A DNA stretch of 64,000 nucleotides, from the IMG/VR virus record IMGVR_UViG_3300004369_000008, positions 1 to 64,000 of that record; one strand, 5' to 3'. Source of the stretch: a virus. This document shows positions 26,179 to 49,236 of this stretch, one piece after another (the first letter of the stretch is position 1; every line of letters starts with the position of its first letter). The position numbers and the translations under genes are program-made. Below the pieces are notes generated by a model. It was not told the origin of the DNA, searched no databases, and was given only the letters and a program-made list of their open reading frames with translations.

Positions 26179-26972
26179 GTTGCGCTCTTGCGATATTCAA
26201 CCTCTTCAGGCGTGCAAATTCTATCGTGAATCTCACACGCCTCATCGTAGTTTTCAATCCATTCATGTAGAGGTTGCTCTCTAAGTTTTCTGGATTTTGG
26301 TCGGAGTGAACCCATTCGGAATACCCCTAAGAAATCCAAAATTCGATTGGTTTGATTGTCCCAATCATCAAGGAAATCTTCGTAGAAAACCTCAAGAGTA
26401 TCTAATCCTTGAGTCTCTCTTTTGATTTTTTCAACATAATTCTGATCCCATGTGTACCATCCTCGAAAATGATCTTCAGTAACATGAATTTTAATGACAT
26501 CCGCAGGACCATCATTTCGTTCGGTTCCATCTGGAAGTTCAGTGAATCTTTGCCAAAGATCAGTCTTGATAGCCACGGATTGAGACGTGTATTGTTCCAT
26601 CCTGTTTCTGCGGAAGGGAATAATGATCTTGTAACCTTGTTCTCGGATGTAATCTCGAACATCAGTGAGTTCTCCAAGAGGATCGGGATGCTCATGTGTG
26701 CGTGCTTGATAGCCTTGGAGCTTAAACCCGACAGCTAAATGCTCAGGCTTGACATTCTCCGATAAAATCTTTTCAAGATAGCTCTTAGCTGTTGCGTGTT
26801 CTGAGTAGCATGTCTTGAACTGATGATATCCGATTTGATCTGGATACTTGTGATATCTTTGGTGAAAAAGTTCAGCTAGACATAGAACTTGGGGATGATG
26901 TCCCAGAACTCCCCACAGCATGGTCGAGCCTGTTCTTGGCTGATGACAGATAGCAAATTTAATGATCGACAT
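26166..26972 (-). CDS. Sulfotransferase (PAPS-dependent, Stf0-like)
   Basis: 268 residues. The N-terminal CHQPRTGSTML is the 5'-phosphosulfate-binding loop. IIPFRRNRMEQYTS is the 3'-phosphate-binding segment (Arg...Ser). A conserved C-terminal FYEDFLDDW helix follows. It transfers sulfate from PAPS to a hydroxyl on a sugar or lipid. The start overlaps the upstream Nudix gene by 14 bases. Together with the many glycosyltransferases it suggests surface-glycan decoration. Confidence 0.8.
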   Translation of the reverse strand: MSIIKFAICHQPRTGSTMLWGVLGHHPQVLCLAELFHQRYHKYPDQIGYHQFKTCYSEHATAKSYLEKILSENVKPEHLAVGFKLQGYQARTHEHPDPLGELTDVRDYIREQGYKIIIPFRRNRMEQYTSQSVAIKTDLWQRFTELPDGTERNDGPADVIKIHVTEDHFRGWYTWDQNYVEKIKRETQGLDTLEVFYEDFLDDWDNQTNRILDFLGVFRMGSLRPKSRKLREQPLHEWIENYDEACEIHDRICTPEEVEYRKSATKKG

Positions 26973-37722: not shown

Positions 37723-40077
37723 ATGGCTATTTTAAGAGGTTTTCCGCCTTCAAACACGATCTCGCCTTCGGTGCGAATTACCGAAAAAGATTTGAGCTTC
37801 ATCGCTCCTCAGCAGTCATTTCATCGTGCTGGTCTGATTGGGTTCGCCTCTAAAGGTCCAATCAACGTTCCAACACTTGTAAGCACGCAACGTCAGCTAA
37901 CTACTACGTTTGGCTATCCGCACCCAGAGTCCGGTGATCCTTACTTGGTTTATGCGGCTGAACAATACCTGCTGATTGCGAATGAGTTGTACATCGTCCG
38001 AGTGGCCGATGAAGATGAAGTTAGTGATGAAAAGGCAAACACGGCATCGATTGACATTCCATCTGCTGGAGGTCAAATCGAGATCAAAACAGACGAAGTG
38101 GGCGATTACACGTTCACAGTAGATTCCTTCTTCCGCTGGAGACTGAATGGAGTTCTGGCATCTAAGACCTTGGTGGTCTTGGCCGGTACTTACACAGCCG
38201 CTCAGTTGGCAGAAGACTTGAATCTTCAACTTGTTCCAGATATTGACGGCATCGAGTTTTACTCGTTTGACACCGATACAAAAATTGGAGTGAGAACAAC
38301 ATTCTCGTTCGGCCCAGATGCCGAATTGGAAATGGTCTCTGTCCAAGACGCCATTTATGGTGGTGCGGTTGTTGACGGCAATGTTACTGGTCTTGGCCAA
38401 GGTATGACACAAGCTTCCATCACTGGTAGCAAGAGCCAATACCCAGAAGCCTACCAGACGGCTGGAGAATATGATTTCACAGGTCTAACAGACCTCAACA
38501 TTCACATCGTTATCGACGGTACTGATAACGTCAACATCGACAACGTTGTTCAGATCATTGATCTTGGAGACCTTGAAGGTGCAGAATGGACAATCTCTGA
38601 AATTGTCACAGAAATCGAAAGTCAGAAAATTGAAAACGGCGGCACGCTGCCGGGTGGATGGACAGCTTCAGCTACAGGCGACAACCTGACATTCACAACA
38701 GACCATCATGGTCGAGATGCACGACTTCTTATCAAACCCGACAGCACTGCTGAAGGACTCTTTGGTTTGGAGAACGTAACCGTTGAGGGTGCAAGCCCAA
38801 TCGGTACATCTGGTGACGCTGCGATCTATACTTATGGTCGTGTGAATGGTGATGCAAACTCCACTGGAGCCATCTCTCTCACAGTACAAGCTGATTCTCA
38901 GGGTATTGACGGCAACTCGACTCAGATCGTTATTGAAAACAACATTCGTGAAGGTAACTTCGTGATGCAAGTCTACAACCAAGGTGTACAGGTTGAGTCT
39001 TGGGGTGCCCTCATTAAAGATGAGAACTCTCGGTTCTATGTTGAAACGTTCCTCTCACTGGTTTCCAGTTGGGTACGAGCAATTGACAATACAGCAAACC
39101 CAGCGCCACCTCTTGATGGTACTTATACCCTAACTGGCGGTTCAGACGGTATTCCATCTGATCCAGACGAGCAGGACGAGCTTATCATCGGAAATCGAAT
39201 TGGTTTCACAGGCATGTATGCTCTTTCAGAGCCAGAGCAGATCGACATTGACTTGATCGCTGCTCCGGGCCACTCAAGCACGGCAATTGTGACGGCTCTT
39301 CTGGACTTGTGCCAGAACGTCAGAATGGACTGCTTGGCCATCATTGACCCACCATTCGGTTTGACAGTCAATGAGATTGTCGCATGGCAAAACGGTACTC
39401 ACCCATTGAATACAACCAGATTTGACTCCGACTTCGGAGCGCTCTACTGGCCATGGGTGAAGATCAGAGACAACTTCAACAGAGTTGATATTTGGGCACC
39501 ACCTTCGGGATCGGTTATGGCCACTATCGCTCGAAGCGATCAGTTGTCTGCTCCTTGGTTCGCACCTGCTGGTGTTAACCGTGGTACTGTTCCCAACATT
39601 ACAGACGTGTTCTCTCGCCCAACGCTGGACGAAAGAGACTTGATGTACGGCTACCGAAATGCCGTGAACCCAATCGTTCAGTTCGTGGACTTTGAAGGCT
39701 TCGTAATCTGGGGTCAAAAGACACTTCAGAGACGCCCAACTGCTCTCGACCGTGTAAACGTCAGAAGACTGATGTTCTACATCGAGAAGAGAATCAGACG
39801 TGCATCTCGCCAGTTGCTCTTCGATCCTCATGACGACATTCTGCGACAGAAGTTCACCAGAATTTCGACAGCTATTCTTCAAGAAGTTCAGGTCGGACGT
39901 GGTGTCAATGACTTCCGAGTCAAGTGTGACGAAGAGTTGAACACACCAGACGTTATCGACAGAAACGAAATGCGTGCCCGAATCGGCGTTCAGCCTATCC
40001 GAGCCGCAGAGTTCATCTTCATCGAGTTCTCGATCCACAGAACCGGATCGTTCGGTGAGAATGCAGACACGTTCTAA
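37723..40077 (+). CDS. Contractile tail sheath protein, T4 gp18-like
   Basis: 784 residues. The N-terminus has FPPSNTISPSVRITEKDLSF and AGLIGFASKGPINVPTLV; the C-terminus has the sheath core: FVIWGQKTLQRRPTALDRVN, RRLMFYIEKRI and a final RPAEF-like AAEFIFIEFS. The middle 350 residues are a variable surface insertion typical of sheath proteins. Polymerises around the tube and contracts on infection. Confidence 0.93.
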   Translation: MAILRGFPPSNTISPSVRITEKDLSFIAPQQSFHRAGLIGFASKGPINVPTLVSTQRQLTTTFGYPHPESGDPYLVYAAEQYLLIANELYIVRVADEDEVSDEKANTASIDIPSAGGQIEIKTDEVGDYTFTVDSFFRWRLNGVLASKTLVVLAGTYTAAQLAEDLNLQLVPDIDGIEFYSFDTDTKIGVRTTFSFGPDAELEMVSVQDAIYGGAVVDGNVTGLGQGMTQASITGSKSQYPEAYQTAGEYDFTGLTDLNIHIVIDGTDNVNIDNVVQIIDLGDLEGAEWTISEIVTEIESQKIENGGTLPGGWTASATGDNLTFTTDHHGRDARLLIKPDSTAEGLFGLENVTVEGASPIGTSGDAAIYTYGRVNGDANSTGAISLTVQADSQGIDGNSTQIVIENNIREGNFVMQVYNQGVQVESWGALIKDENSRFYVETFLSLVSSWVRAIDNTANPAPPLDGTYTLTGGSDGIPSDPDEQDELIIGNRIGFTGMYALSEPEQIDIDLIAAPGHSSTAIVTALLDLCQNVRMDCLAIIDPPFGLTVNEIVAWQNGTHPLNTTRFDSDFGALYWPWVKIRDNFNRVDIWAPPSGSVMATIARSDQLSAPWFAPAGVNRGTVPNITDVFSRPTLDERDLMYGYRNAVNPIVQFVDFEGFVIWGQKTLQRRPTALDRVNVRRLMFYIEKRIRRASRQLLFDPHDDILRQKFTRISTAILQEVQVGRGVNDFRVKCDEELNTPDVIDRNEMRARIGVQPIRAAEFIFIEFSIHRTGSFGENADTF

Positions 40078-40140: not shown

Positions 40141-40695
40141 ATGGTAGCAATGGGTATTGGTCGTCTTGGCGCACCAAACGTAATCATTAAGCGAAAGTTC
40201 AGATTCACACTACAGTTTTCAACTCCGTGTGGATTCGTTCCAGAGCATTATGTGAAGTTGGCAGCAAGACCCCAATTAGACATAGAAGAAACAGAACTGA
40301 ACTTCTTGAATGCTGTCACTTGGATTCCCGGCAAAGGCAAGTGGCAACCTTTGAGTGTCACTTATGTTGATGTCGCCACGGCTGAAATGCAAGGACTGTA
40401 TAACTGGGTCGCCACTGTGTATGAGTTCGGCGGTCCACAGGCTCCGATCACTTTGAAACAAAGTGAAAAAGCAGGGTGGAATGGCACTGGCCTTCTCACC
40501 ATGTACGATGGTTGCGGATCACCATTAGAGTATTGGCTTCTTAATTCATGCTGGCCTCAGTCGATCAATTTTGGCGACTTGGATTATGCTGATTCGGAAA
40601 CAGCCACAATTGAACTAACAGTCAGATTTTCTGATGTCCAGTTCTTCGGACAGTGCGGTGTAACAACACCAGTTAGCTGTTGCCGAGGATGTTAA
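40141..40695 (+). CDS. Tail tube protein, T4 gp19-like, copy 1
   Basis: 184 residues, SD GAGG. Shared family blocks: IKRKFRFT, PEHYVKLAARPQLDIEETEL, NAVTWIPGKGKW, MYDGCG and the final TIELTVRFSDVQF. Forms hexameric rings of the tube. Less similar to copies 2 and 3 than they are to each other. Confidence 0.88.
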   Translation: MVAMGIGRLGAPNVIIKRKFRFTLQFSTPCGFVPEHYVKLAARPQLDIEETELNFLNAVTWIPGKGKWQPLSVTYVDVATAEMQGLYNWVATVYEFGGPQAPITLKQSEKAGWNGTGLLTMYDGCGSPLEYWLLNSCWPQSINFGDLDYADSETATIELTVRFSDVQFFGQCGVTTPVSCCRGC

Positions 40696-40712
40696 ACTAA
40701 AGAGGAACAAAA

Positions 40713-41318
40713 ATGGCAGACAAGAGAAACATGGGTATCGGCGTTATCGGCCAGCCAGATATGGTGTTCAAGCGCAAATTTCGCTACACCTTTGAAATCT
40801 TCGGCTTCTGTGATAACGAGAAGAATGTTGTTCCTGAGCATTTCGTCAAGACAGCTTCTCGACCAAATCTATCCATTGAAGAAACAGAAATCAATCACCT
40901 GAATGCTAAGACGTGGATTCCCGGCAAAGCATCTTGGGAAACAATTACAGTCACTTATGTTGACGTAGCTCACGAAGAGATGAAATCTTTGTGGAACTGG
41001 CTTGCCACAGTCTACAACTTCACTGATCCAATTCGTCTGACGATGGGCAATAAACGTGAATGGGATGCCACAGGCGTTCTTAACATGTATGACGGATGTG
41101 GTATTTTACTAGAAACATGGCAGTTGCAGCACATGTTCCCAACTGCAATTAACTTCGGCGAGCTTGATTATTCGTCTTCTGAGGAAGCGACAATCGAATT
41201 GACTCTGAGATTCTCAGATGTCAAGTACAGATCGTTCTGCCCAGCATTCGATCCATTCGCTTGCTGTGATGGATGTGGAACAACAACCAAGAAGCCACAA
41301 TACGCAGAATTCATCTAA
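40713..41318 (+). CDS. Tail tube protein, T4 gp19-like, copy 2
   Basis: 201 residues, SD GAGG. FKRKFRYTFEI, SRPNLSIEETEINHLNAKTW, IPGKASWETITVTYVDVA and EEATIELTLRFSDV. Very close to copy 3 across the core; the C-terminal tails differ. Confidence 0.88.
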   Translation: MADKRNMGIGVIGQPDMVFKRKFRYTFEIFGFCDNEKNVVPEHFVKTASRPNLSIEETEINHLNAKTWIPGKASWETITVTYVDVAHEEMKSLWNWLATVYNFTDPIRLTMGNKREWDATGVLNMYDGCGILLETWQLQHMFPTAINFGELDYSSSEEATIELTLRFSDVKYRSFCPAFDPFACCDGCGTTTKKPQYAEFI

Positions 41319-41338
41319 GATAAAGATAGGAGTTAGGA

Positions 41339-41980
41339 ATGGCTGAGAAAATCCCAATGGGAATTGGACATCTAGGTTTCAGAAACCTAGTATTCAAACG
41401 TAAGTTTCGATTTACGTTTGTGCTGGAAGAAATCTGTGGTAGCCAAAGAATTCCCGAACATTTTGTAAAGGTCGCTTCGAGACCGAATCTGTCAATCGAA
41501 GAGACTGAAATTAACTTCCTGAACGCCAAAACTTGGATTCCCGGTAAGGCGTCTTGGGAAACGATGACTGTCACTTATATCGACGTAGCCTCCGCTGAGA
41601 TGGCACCGTTGTTTAACTGGCTGGCATCTGTGTACAACTTCACTGACCCAATCAATTTGGAGCAGGGTTCACAACGTGCAGACTATACTGCTACAGGCAT
41701 CCTTAAACTATGGGATGGTTGTGGTCAGTTATTGGAAATGTGGACAATTAAGGATGTTTGGCCAACCGCCATTAACTTTGGAGATTTGGACTATTCCAAC
41801 TCTGAAGAGGCAACAATCGAATTGACTCTGAGATACTCAGACGTTATGTACGAAAACATCTGCCCCGGTTTCGCAATTAGCCCATGTTGCTCGCCATGTG
41901 GTGGTTCACCAAACCAACCACCTGAAGAAGACCCAGAAGTCATCACGAACCACTCACCTGCTAATTTGCTTGGTTTGTAA
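41339..41980 (+). CDS. Tail tube protein, T4 gp19-like, copy 3
   Basis: 213 residues, SD GGAG. FKRKFRFTFVL, SRPNLSIEETEINFLNAKTW, IPGKASWETMTVTYIDVA and EEATIELTLRYSDV. Has the longest C-terminal tail, Cys/Pro-rich, which could be exposed in the tube lumen or at its end. Confidence 0.88.
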   Translation: MAEKIPMGIGHLGFRNLVFKRKFRFTFVLEEICGSQRIPEHFVKVASRPNLSIEETEINFLNAKTWIPGKASWETMTVTYIDVASAEMAPLFNWLASVYNFTDPINLEQGSQRADYTATGILKLWDGCGQLLEMWTIKDVWPTAINFGDLDYSNSEEATIELTLRYSDVMYENICPGFAISPCCSPCGGSPNQPPEEDPEVITNHSPANLLGL

Positions 41981-42003
41981 TCTTATTCAATCATGACTAA
42001 ATT

Positions 42004-42037
42004 AAAGGGGCCACAGTAAATACTGTGGCCCCTTTTT
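42004..42037 (+). terminator. Terminator after tube copy 3
   Basis: AAAGGGGCCACAG (42004-42016), loop, CTGTGGCCCCTTT (42023-42035) and Ts. It separates copies 1-3 from the diverged copy 4. Confidence 0.85.
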
Positions 42038-42052
42038 ATTGAGGAGATAAAC

Positions 42053-42631
42053 ATGGGAAGACCAATGGGTTTGGACTTTGGCTTGAACGGCGATGGCAAG
42101 TTCTGCAAAAGGAAATTCCGTTATCTATTCAGAATTGATGGTGTGGTTGCAGACAGCCAGAAATCAATGAAGACGCTGCCGCCACTACAAAGCGCACGGC
42201 CAAACTTGAATTTCAAAGAAATGACAGCGAATCATCTAATCGAAGATGTGTTCTATCCATCCAAGCCAGACTGGAAGCCGATCAATTTAGTTCTCTATGA
42301 TCTTAAAATTGATCCACACCCAGTCTGGGAGTGGATCAAAAAATTCTACGATCCACGCCCAGAGAAAGGAATTCTACTTGCCCCTAATGAAAATCCCGGT
42401 CCAACTGAAGGCTTCATTAGAAACGCCATCCTTGATCTGTATGATGGATGTGGAGAACTTGTAGAACAATGGGTCTACGAAGATGCTTGGCCGCAAGCTG
42501 TCAACTTCCAGACTTTGGACATGGGAAGCTCCGAGATTGTAACACTAGACTTGACTATCAGGTATGTGCGAGCGTATGTGCAAGAAGCACCGCCGCCACA
42601 ACTTCAACAACCTTCAGTCGGAAGTGTTTAA
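42053..42631 (+). CDS. Diverged tail tube-like protein, copy 4
   Basis: 192 residues, SD GAGGAG. CKRKFRYLFRIDGV, SARPNLNFKEMTANHL, KPDWKPINLVLYDL, LYDGCGELVEQWVYEDAWPQ and IVTLDLTIRYVRA. The same fold signature as copies 1-3 but clearly more distant, so it may make a special ring (tube initiator or terminator, or neck). Sits behind a terminator, allowing a lower dose. Confidence 0.75.
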   Translation: MGRPMGLDFGLNGDGKFCKRKFRYLFRIDGVVADSQKSMKTLPPLQSARPNLNFKEMTANHLIEDVFYPSKPDWKPINLVLYDLKIDPHPVWEWIKKFYDPRPEKGILLAPNENPGPTEGFIRNAILDLYDGCGELVEQWVYEDAWPQAVNFQTLDMGSSEIVTLDLTIRYVRAYVQEAPPPQLQQPSVGSV

Positions 42632-42948: not shown

Positions 42949-43524
42949 TCAGTTTATTATGCCTCGGGACATACCAACACCGCTCATTGAGATTTCTTTT
43001 CCATTCTTATAGAACACATGATCGAAACGATCCTGCAACCAAGTGTGATATCTCTTCTTTAATTCATTGTAGTTTCTAGCACTACGATATAGCTGGCGAA
43101 AATGGTTCAAAATACATGTTGTCATGTAATTGAAAGCTTTGGCTTTTTGCCCGCTTTTTCCTCGATAGTTTGGATTAAACCTATCGACTTTCTCAAAGCA
43201 AATAAGAACACCTTCTTGAATAGCGTCATCTACGTCAATTCCACTGAATTTGGCGTAATTTGCGATGTTCTCTGATAGAATGTAGAAAGCAACCGCTAAT
43301 CTATCCTGACAAGCCTTGAAGCACATGCTCGCTTCTTTGTGTTGGCTTAAGATTGCTTCCAGTTGCTCTTTCTTGATGTGATCTTTGTATTTAACGAAAC
43401 GTCTGTTGTGAGTTTCTTCAAGATCGGCAATTATGAGTTCGAGTTTCGCTTTCTGTCTCTTGTAGAATTGAAAAGCTTGGATAATAGACTCGAAATCCTT
43501 GTTATTAAGGTACTCGTTAGCCAT
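42949..43524 (-). CDS. Late transcription sigma factor, T4 gp55-like
   Basis: 191 residues, SD GGAGGA. The hallmark block is very clear: DVDDAIQEGVLICFEKVDRF, then KAFNYMTTCILNHFRQLYRS and ARNYNELKKRY, the region 2-like core of T4 gp55. It directs host RNA polymerase to late promoters (T4 core TATAAATA) with sliding clamp gp45 and gp33. This supports a T4-like late programme and candidate TATATAAGA/CATAAATA elements. The C-terminus ends with MSGVGMSRGIIN. Confidence 0.93.
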   Translation of the reverse strand: MANEYLNNKDFESIIQAFQFYKRQKAKLELIIADLEETHNRRFVKYKDHIKKEQLEAILSQHKEASMCFKACQDRLAVAFYILSENIANYAKFSGIDVDDAIQEGVLICFEKVDRFNPNYRGKSGQKAKAFNYMTTCILNHFRQLYRSARNYNELKKRYHTWLQDRFDHVFYKNGKEISMSGVGMSRGIIN

Positions 43525-47014: not shown

Positions 47015-47068
47015 ACTCTTATACCAACGTAATGGGTTCTAAAAGAACATAGTAACAAGGAGTAAAAT

Positions 47069-48292
47069 ATGGCTGATGATGTATTTCGCCAAAGAAAAAA
47101 GGTTAGCCTCAATGATGCAATCGATGAGGTAAACAACCAACAAGTTCAGGCAACAGATGAAGGAACGCTAATGAGCGAACAAACAGAAGAGGGCGATCCT
47201 CTACACGAAGTTAGGAAAGTGCAGCAGGCAATTGCACAAGCATCGGGAAGGGAAGTCCCGCAACAGATGGCAGCGGGCGCAGATGCTCCGTTCCAAATCG
47301 GCGGTAACATTCCGCCAGAATTTCGAGAAGCACTGGCAAACAAAGGCCAAGCTCCTCACTACGAAGAGGGCGTTGTCAAAGCCAAGCAGCCAAAGCAGAA
47401 GGTTGATGACGATGATGAGTTCTTCAAAACACCAGCCAGCAAAATGGCTCGAAAGAAGATGCCAACTCCAGACAGTCGTGTGAACCTAAGAACACAAGGC
47501 AGTGATAATCTGGAAGGTTTGCTGGATCGCCTCATCGAGAAACATCAATGGGAAGAATTTCAGTTTGCTTCTTTGGGAAAATTCTATGATAACATCCCAC
47601 AGACCATTCACATTCGAGCTATGACTGGTGAGGAAGAGCAAATTTTGGCCACTCCAAGATTTGTAAAGAAGGGCACGGCCATTGACAAAATCTTCCAGCG
47701 TTGTATTCGAGAACCCCTTGATACCAGAGAGTTGTTGTCTGCCGACAGAAATCACTTGCTCATTTACCTGCGTGGTATTTCTTATACCCCAGAGTATGAC
47801 GTGGAAATCAAATGTCCGGCATGTGGAACCAAGTTCTCGACAACCATTGACTTGAACATCTTGGAAATCGATGCTTGTCCACCAGACTTCGGCCCAGAAA
47901 CTTTGAGTGGTGTTCTGCCAGCCAGCGGATTTTCCTATAGCTATCGACTCTCTACGGGTCAAGACGAACAAGCAATCAGCGCCTACAGAGACCGCCGTAT
48001 TCAAATGTGGGGTGACTCATCTGAAGACGACACGTTGCTTTATCGTACTGTGATTCTTATGGAAGAGATTGAAGGCGTTTCAGACAAGAAGGAACTGATG
48101 GTTCTTCTCAAGAGACTGCCGATTGTTGATGTCGCTCACCTTCGAAACGAGGTTAGTGATCCTCCATTCGGAGTTGATACAGAAGTTGAAATCATTTGTC
48201 CTTCATGTGCAGAGGAGTTCCATATTGATCTGCCGCTTGAAACAAATTTTTTCTTCCCAAGGAAGAAGGAGCAGGAAAGAACCCGAGCGTAG
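47069..48292 (+). CDS. Tail/baseplate assembly protein, T4 gp26-like
   Basis: 407 residues, SD AAGGAG. The first 150 residues are charged and probably disordered. The C-terminal 250 residues match the T4 baseplate-protein pattern: FASLGKFYDN, IRAMTGEEEQILAT, LLSADRNHLLIYLRGISY, then two zinc pairs (CPACG and CPSCAEEF). The end contains T_TTT_TTC over a second frame, typical of programmed frameshifting in tail-chaperone genes. Confidence 0.7.
   Translation: MADDVFRQRKKVSLNDAIDEVNNQQVQATDEGTLMSEQTEEGDPLHEVRKVQQAIAQASGREVPQQMAAGADAPFQIGGNIPPEFREALANKGQAPHYEEGVVKAKQPKQKVDDDDEFFKTPASKMARKKMPTPDSRVNLRTQGSDNLEGLLDRLIEKHQWEEFQFASLGKFYDNIPQTIHIRAMTGEEEQILATPRFVKKGTAIDKIFQRCIREPLDTRELLSADRNHLLIYLRGISYTPEYDVEIKCPACGTKFSTTIDLNILEIDACPPDFGPETLSGVLPASGFSYSYRLSTGQDEQAISAYRDRRIQMWGDSSEDDTLLYRTVILMEEIEGVSDKKELMVLLKRLPIVDVAHLRNEVSDPPFGVDTEVEIICPSCAEEFHIDLPLETNFFFPRKKEQERTRA
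48247..48253 (+). other. Candidate -1 ribosomal slippery site
   Basis: T_TTT_TTC in the frame of the gp26-like gene, preceded by A_AAT_TTT (48244-48250), also a valid XXXYYYZ heptamer. A stop in the -1 frame (48238-48240) ends just before, and the -1 frame is then open to 48468. Confidence 0.6.
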
Positions 48293-48309
48293 AACTCTGG
48301 ACAACCCTG

Positions 48310-48468
48310 ATGGAAGAGCTTTTCTTCTTCCAATATCACATGAACATGAGCAAGCAGGATAGCATGACGCTTCCTGTCCATGAAAGAAAGTGGTTGATCC
48401 AGCGTTTTATTGACCAAAAGAAGAGGGAAAATGACGCAATGGAGAAGGCACGAAAGGCTAAGAAGTAA
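48310..48468 (+). CDS. Small tail-chaperone-like extension frame
   Basis: 52 residues if started at the ATG, but the frame is open from 48241, reading NPSVELWTTLMEELFFFQYH before it continues through MSKQDSMTLPVHERKWLIQR. A short helical protein with this LPVHERKWLI type of ending is what follows the slippery site in gpG-gpT tail-assembly chaperones. The ATG has no good SD, which favours synthesis as a -1 frameshift fusion with the gp26-like protein. Ends ARKAKK. Confidence 0.6.
   Translation: MEELFFFQYHMNMSKQDSMTLPVHERKWLIQRFIDQKKRENDAMEKARKAKK
48449..48466 (+). repeat. 18-bp direct repeat, left copy
   Basis: CACGAAAGGCTAAGAAGT, covering the last codons of the small tail gene. An identical copy at 49217-49234 covers the last codons of the HNH gene, so the repeats flank the HNH cassette. 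Confidence 0.9.
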
Positions 48469-48478
48469 GAAAATGATT

Positions 48479-48553
48479 GAGATTCCTTATAAAATGATAA
48501 CTTTCTCTCTCTTATAGAACATGAGAGAAAGTTACTCATGCAAAAGGAGTCTC
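48479..48553 (+). promoter_or_regulatory. Two-tier hairpin masking an HNH gene's RBS
   Basis: Outer stem GAGATTCCTT (48479-48488) with AAGGAGTCTC (48544-48553), 10 pairs with one G-U, which encloses the AAGGAG SD. Inner stem TAACTTTCTCTC (48498-48509) with GAGAGAAAGTTA (48523-48534), 12 perfect pairs. Between the stems is TATAAAAT, similar to a T4 late promoter. Confidence 0.65.
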
Positions 48554-48555
48554 AA

Positions 48556-49236
48556 ATGAACGATAAGAAATTATGTGAATGTGGATGCGGGAAAGAGGTA
48601 AAGGTTTGGAAAAACGGAAGATTCAGCCCTTTCCTCAGAGGACATCACATGCGAAAGAAGGGCTGGACGCCACCTGATCCAAATACAAAACATTATTGTA
48701 AATGTGGATGTAAAACAGAGATCAAGCCATTGAAGAGCGGTCATATCAACAAGTATATTAAAGGTCATCATCTTAAAGGAAAAGAATTAGACCTTAAATA
48801 TAGATTAGAGAGAACAAGGAATCGATGGGATAAAGAGCCTATACTAAGTCCTTATTTAAAAGACACGTTTATTTCATTTAACAAAAATCTTAAGAGATGG
48901 ACGGCTTGTGTAAAATGGGAAAACGGAAAAAACAGAGGTGTAATGCACGCCAACGCTGTTTACAGAGAACACTTTGGAGATATTCCCAAAGGCTATGTGG
49001 TCCACCACAAGAATGGTCGATGTGACAGGATTAAAGATGACAGACCCGAAAATCTTATGTTGCTTATTGATGAGTGGAACTTAAGGTTCTTTCCAGTATT
49101 AGCTAAAGGATTTGGTGTAGAAGAAAAAATCGTGACTGATTGTTACTTAAGAATTCAAGATGAAAATTTAAGTAGAGAAGAATTATTCGCTATGTTATGT
49201 GAGGAATTGGCTTCTTCACGAAAGGCTAAGAAGTGA
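48556..49236 (+). CDS. HNH endonuclease (homing-type)
   Basis: 226 residues from the ATG with AAAGGAG; a Met 18 bases earlier overlaps the SD. Two CxCGC-type zinc modules (CECGCGKEV, CKCGCKTEI), then an HNH core with VVHHKNGRCDRIKDDRPENL. Inserted between tail genes, flanked by 18-bp direct repeats. Base composition is more A-rich than its neighbours, consistent with recent arrival. Confidence 0.85.
   Translation: MNDKKLCECGCGKEVKVWKNGRFSPFLRGHHMRKKGWTPPDPNTKHYCKCGCKTEIKPLKSGHINKYIKGHHLKGKELDLKYRLERTRNRWDKEPILSPYLKDTFISFNKNLKRWTACVKWENGKNRGVMHANAVYREHFGDIPKGYVVHHKNGRCDRIKDDRPENLMLLIDEWNLRFFPVLAKGFGVEEKIVTDCYLRIQDENLSREELFAMLCEELASSRKAKK
49217..49234 (+). repeat. 18-bp direct repeat, right copy
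   Basis: Identical to 48449-48466. Overlaps the HNH stop region. Confidence 0.9.

Follow-up and report, generated by a model that had tools for sequence, protein, structure and literature searches.

Probable −1 programmed frameshifting in a gp26-like tail assembly chaperone gene of an IMG/VR virus

Tail assembly chaperones and the gp26-like locus

In phage lambda, the tail assembly chaperones gpG and gpGT are associated with a small −1 ORF reached through the slippery heptamer GGGAAAG. This G-T frameshifting has been described as conserved widely among long-tailed phages, 'except T4' (Atkins et al. 2016, PMC5009743). The chaperone genes of T4-like phages were later identified by Vladimirov, Gautam and Davidson 2022 (Virology 566:9-15), a study cited by the PRFect authors for some T4-like phages with short/long gene pairs (PMC10885494), and in the paper on phage Adele for poly-T −1 slippery sequences in T4-like TAC-N genes (PMC12846349). 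As represented by these citing papers, the T4-like genes are, in our reading, gp26 and gp51. The view, in the original prediction for the locus described here, that such a layout was not known to be established in T4-type gp26-like genes has been overtaken by these citations, and T4's lack of a frameshift was dropped as an open question on the same grounds. Since Vladimirov et al., as cited, identified T4-like chaperones, gene pairs and poly-T sites, the frameshift principle is already known, T4-type phages included, and the present locus is a well-supported further case.

The window, a stretch of 64,000 nucleotides from a virus record of 73,986 bases (IMGVR_UViG_3300004369_000008), displays, on the + strand unless otherwise stated, a tail sheath gene (37723..40077; phrog_23 tail sheath, E=6e-86; PF04984, E=6e-16), followed by four consecutive tail-tube-like genes (40141..42631; phrog_4542 tail tube, E=1e-20 to 2e-30), all upstream of a gp26-like gene (47069..48292). 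The latter encodes a protein of 407 aa, assigned as the short tail assembly chaperone (TAC-N) from PF12322, phrog_150 and a structural model, and is preceded by the Shine-Dalgarno sequence AAGGAG (47057..47062), with a 6-nt match to the anti-Shine-Dalgarno. The protein comprises (i) an N-terminal region of ~150 aa rich in Q/E/K, and (ii) a T4_baseplate domain containing two CPxC pairs, which passes the Pfam cut-off (PF12322, E=7e-16, 59 bits against 24.5) and also matches phrog_150 baseplate hub (E=1e-19). The AlphaFold model of the last 257 aa (pLDDT 88) finds its best BFVD match in the SP-15 baseplate hub subunit (E=4e-22); the comparison of the model with the PDB returned nothing significant, and a sequence-based search of solved structures gave no significant match. 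On the − strand, an ORF at 42949-43524 shows a weak match to sigma-70 region 2 (PF04542, E=0.0009, below the cut-off), and its sequence is possibly that of a phage sigma factor.

The slippery heptamer and the −1 frame

Near its end, the gp26-like gene reads ..GAA ACA AAT TTT TTC TTC CCA AGG.., with the codons ACA AAT TTT TTC TTC at 48242-48256, and comprises both of the overlapping heptamers named in the original prediction, A_AAT_TTT (48244..48250) and T_TTT_TTC (48247..48253), the latter located 36 nt before the 0-frame stop TAG (48290..48292). A scan of viral_contigs for gp26-like relatives returned 80 loci; with duplicates and two truncated loci removed, the conservation set comprises 57 distinct sequences, including the window and its IMG/VR relatives. 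Conservation of the heptamer in relatives, proposed at the outset as a check, is borne out, with TTTTTTC kept in the same phase in all 57, whereas the preceding codon is AAT in 47, AGT in nine and TCT in one. A_AAT_TTT, lacking its AAT in 10/57 sequences, is rejected as probably not the shift site, and T_TTT_TTC is therefore taken as the site. By pooled codon use, the codon choice of the heptamer would arise with a frequency of ~0.14 per sequence, a value that is not an independent-trial probability because the 57 sequences are related, with other codons being allowed at this place. A screen for the layout, requiring X_XXY_YYZ within 90 nt of a stop together with a long −1 ORF running past that stop, was applied to the 122 ORFs of at least 100 aa on both strands, and disclosed the gp26-like gene as the sole case on the + strand and one AAATTTT case on the − strand (reverse-complement coordinates 26467-26844). 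The combination of heptamer and −1 ORF at the gp26-like gene is more than chance. A conserved stimulatory RNA structure downstream of the site was found neither in 67 nt from 20 sequences (mean z −0.08) nor in 45 nt from all 57 (mean z −0.22).

The −1 frame opens after a TGA stop (48238..48240) and runs from 48241 to the TAA ending at 48468, exactly as first reported. Downstream of the putative shift, 71 codons and the TAA (48253..48468) would encode the C-terminal domain of a long form (TAC-NC), starting LPKEEGAGK. The −1 ORF is kept in 57/57 distinct sequences with a length of 68-77 codons, and its peptide is conserved from the very first post-slip residues, L-P, following the pattern LP, PS..LW..L.EE.FFF.YH and LP...RKW...RFI.QK. 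Between close pairs, substitutions in the −1 frame past the 0-frame stop fall mainly on third positions (454 versus 194 and 162), and are spread evenly over codon positions in the dual-coding stretch. The predicted model of the domain displays three helices (residues 11-29, 34-38 and 42-70; pLDDT 89), in agreement with the small, conserved helical protein envisaged from the sequence at the outset; searched against BFVD, this fold gave no match below E=0.001.

At the sequence-profile level, the −1 domain scores 22 bits against DUF6760 (PF20546), below the curated cut-off of 27, and its filing under that family was rejected. Matches to Tma16 (PF11176; 20.8 bits for the window against 22.7) and to DUF525 were taken as spurious. 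A DUF6760 match also occurs in the −1 frame of a bacterial contractile-system-like cluster (locus L205, ~1145-1690), where it begins at the stop of a 118-aa ORF, itself located after a tube-like ORF, with G_GGA_AAG, also the lambda heptamer, a few codons before that stop. Together with the sub-threshold resemblance of the window domain, this cluster gives a sequence-level hint of a common origin of such C-terminal domains.

Downstream of the −1 ORF, the window contains an HNH endonuclease ORF (48538-49236; PF13392, E=2e-7), and an exact 18-bp repeat, CACGAAAGGCTAAGAAGT, at 48449-48466 and 49217-49234, ends both ORFs. In five relatives (L008, L014, L031, L043 and L061), a gene encoding 'KERYQNP' directly follows the −1 ORF and no HNH ORF intervenes, and the HNH ORF of the window is for this reason probably an insertion. 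The window gene next to the gp26-like gene and its −1 ORF was not recognised as a tape measure gene. As annotated, phages LIS04 and immuto display the order sheath, tube, gp26, small ORF and tape measure, the small ORF being unannotated in LIS04, and in SP-15 the tape measure position is occupied by a 3.6-kb gene for a putative tail protein, consistent with the order tube, gp26 and tape measure.

Probable frameshifting and its alternatives

The gp26-like gene very probably undergoes a −1 programmed frameshift that would yield two products, TAC-N (407 aa) and TAC-NC (466 aa). Most ribosomes would end at 48290 and release the short form, and a minority, having decoded AAT TTT TTC, would move one base back on T_TTT_TTC, where both tRNA-Phe could re-pair on TTT. 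The slipped ribosomes would resume with CTT CCC AAG and add the 71-residue helical domain, giving a fusion with the junction ..LETNFF-LPKEEGAGK... If the pair works as lambda gpG/gpGT does, TAC-N would coat the tape measure protein, with recruitment of tail tube subunits falling to the added domain of TAC-NC. What the sequences show directly is conservation of the site and of the −1 coding, and no conserved start codon; we infer the slippage itself, its rate and its role in tail assembly. The shift into a tail-chaperone-like frame, as originally predicted, is strongly supported on comparative grounds by the invariant heptamer, the −1 peptide extending from the slip site, the missing conserved start and the gene order of the relatives.

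The second frame might instead be a separate small gene, translated from the internal ATG (48310..48312) by independent or coupled re-initiation 18 nt past the gp26 stop. This ATG is present in the window and its closest relatives, and the distant phage Cygsa01, in which an ATGA overlap joins the small gene to the gp26 stop, shows that coupling of translation occurs somewhere in the wider family. However, the ATG lacks a Shine-Dalgarno sequence, as the original prediction noted, with an anti-Shine-Dalgarno match of only 3 nt against 6 nt for the gp26-like start. It encodes the M of LMEE, where many relatives have A; most have lost the ATG, and in many the first −1-frame start codon lies only inside or after the conserved helix 1 (at codon 28-36 in L020, L028, L029, L043, L046, L063 and L076). 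In addition, the −1 coding conservation reaches beyond the ATG, back to the slip site, and the third-position bias holds between the 0-frame stop and the ATG too. A separate gene is, on this evidence, highly unlikely.

The same invariant run that argues for ribosomal frameshifting, a conserved homopolymer of six T, could also let RNA polymerase slip, some mRNA with an altered number of U then fusing the two frames. Six T followed by C are short for transcriptional slippage, however, and two divergent families keep the heptamer invariably in the X_XXY_YYZ phase, so that polymerase slippage seems barely probable as the source of the fusion. Overlapping open frames are generally common, and a chance overlap with an untranslated −1 ORF would need no mechanism at all; against it stand the retention of both site and ORF in 57/57 sequences, the third-position bias in the −1 frame and the confident, conserved fold. 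Its probability is negligible, and it is already refuted as far as sequence can refute it. Ribosomal −1 frameshifting is the preferred reading.

Short and long chaperone forms in related and known systems

The PF12322 family, to which the window protein belongs, includes both T4 gp26 (208 aa) and T4 gp51 (249 aa), with an extra C-tail in gp51 only. T4 encodes the short and long proteins in two genes, gp26 and gp51, respectively, whereas the window clade would use one frameshifted gene; unlike the T4 chaperones, it also displays a long N-terminal extension and a C-terminal domain without a direct match to the gp51 tail. The clade is far from annotated phages, the best being ~32% identical and the unannotated 595-kb LR756511 42%, and includes contigs up to 533-595 kb.

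The gp26 genes of S-RIM8 (Synechococcus), Aeromonas phage 65.2 and Nitratidesulfovibrio phage SRB7757 have T_TTT_TTC placed one codon ahead of the stop, and their −1 ORFs encode 59-66 aa. In a cyanophage-type set of 80 S-RIM8-like loci, reduced to 77 distinct sequences, TTTTTTC lies one codon before the gp26 stop in every one. Profile comparison of the cyanophage-type −1 domain with the C-tails of T4 gp51 (hhalign, 96.6%, E=7e-10; also 95.6%) indicates that the two are homologous. T-runs with an open −1 frame occur at the same place in RaK2, XacN1 and the PA5oct-like phage PAC2. The phages fetched by a T4 gp51 match all possess separate short and long genes, as in T4, and phage 65.2, a member of the Straboviridae, has the frameshift layout in their place. 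The −1 domain of the window gave no direct profile match to the T4 gp51 tails or the cyanophage −1 domains; it matches the second domain of an immuto-like group (89.7%, E=2e-6), which in turn shows a weak match to the cyanophage domains (22.5%).

Cyanophage gp51 has been described as ~20% as long as other gp51 proteins and without the first ~200 residues (Sullivan et al. 2010, PMC3037559). This short 'gp51' is a small ORF after gp26 that matches only the C-terminus of T4 gp51, and was annotated as a separate truncated gene, whereas the present comparison suggests a frameshift extension of gp26, which would itself supply the missing ~200 residues. In S-RIM8, the open −1 frame at the T_TTT_TTC of gp26 continues into the small 'gp51' ORF, annotated as 'baseplate hub assembly catalyst' (locus L111, 3669-3869); judged from these features, this gp51 is probably the gp26 extension and no separate gene.

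A second ORF in the +1 frame is found in SP-15, LIS04, GXN1, Mel-JY01, LR756508, immuto and two loci from Bacilli-type MAGs; the +1-frame loci at the same Phe codons (TTT_Y) are L212-L311 (viral_contigs), L098-L103, L122 and L123. Among 73 distinct immuto-like or LR756508-like gp26 sequences, all display the second ORF in the +1 frame at these Phe codons, and all have TTT_Y, which allows tRNA-Phe to re-pair one base forward, with a −2 shift on the T run being possible in only 30. The site reads TTT TTT/CTT/CTA TGG CCT GA or TTC TTT TGG CCT GA in 72/73, and TAC replaces TGG in the remaining one; that of Flavobacterium phage immuto is TTT CTT TGG CCT GAC. These patterns suggest a +1 programmed frameshift at TTT_Y in the immuto-like group. 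By a strict count, at least one start codon precedes the domain in all but 8 of the 73, and independent initiation is accordingly harder to dismiss here than in the −1 group. The family can be read, with about even confidence, as having at least three routes to the long form at the same place, including (i) a −1 shift on T_TTT_TTC in the window clade, the cyanophage type and Aeromonas phage 65, (ii) a +1 shift at TTT_Y on the same Phe codons in the immuto-like group and the SP-15 type, and (iii) separate short and long genes in T4, with the direction of frameshifting switched within one orthologous gene.

In large contractile-tailed phages, where the usual annotation is 'baseplate hub subunit' and 'hypothetical protein', these comparisons would give the chaperone a two-product annotation. 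They also suggest a possible reason for the apparent reduction of cyanophage 'gp51' to the final ~20% (Sullivan et al. 2010); the −1 and +1 groups offer a natural series for how a frameshift site changes direction with the fused protein kept. By description, the window resembles the −1 frameshift of TAC genes in Vandenendeviridae/Andersonviridae, another lineage typified by phage Adele (PMC12846349), where the conserved site GTTTTT is T-rich, like the T-run of the window, and the −1 ORF is open in all genomes and often annotated as a hypothetical protein. Its likeness to lambda gpG/gpGT is one of layout, with TTTTTTC in the window against GGGAAAG in lambda: in both, a slippery heptamer close to where the chaperone gene ends gives access to a small downstream −1 ORF, and in the relatives LIS04 and immuto, as annotated, the gene likewise lies between the tube and tape measure genes.
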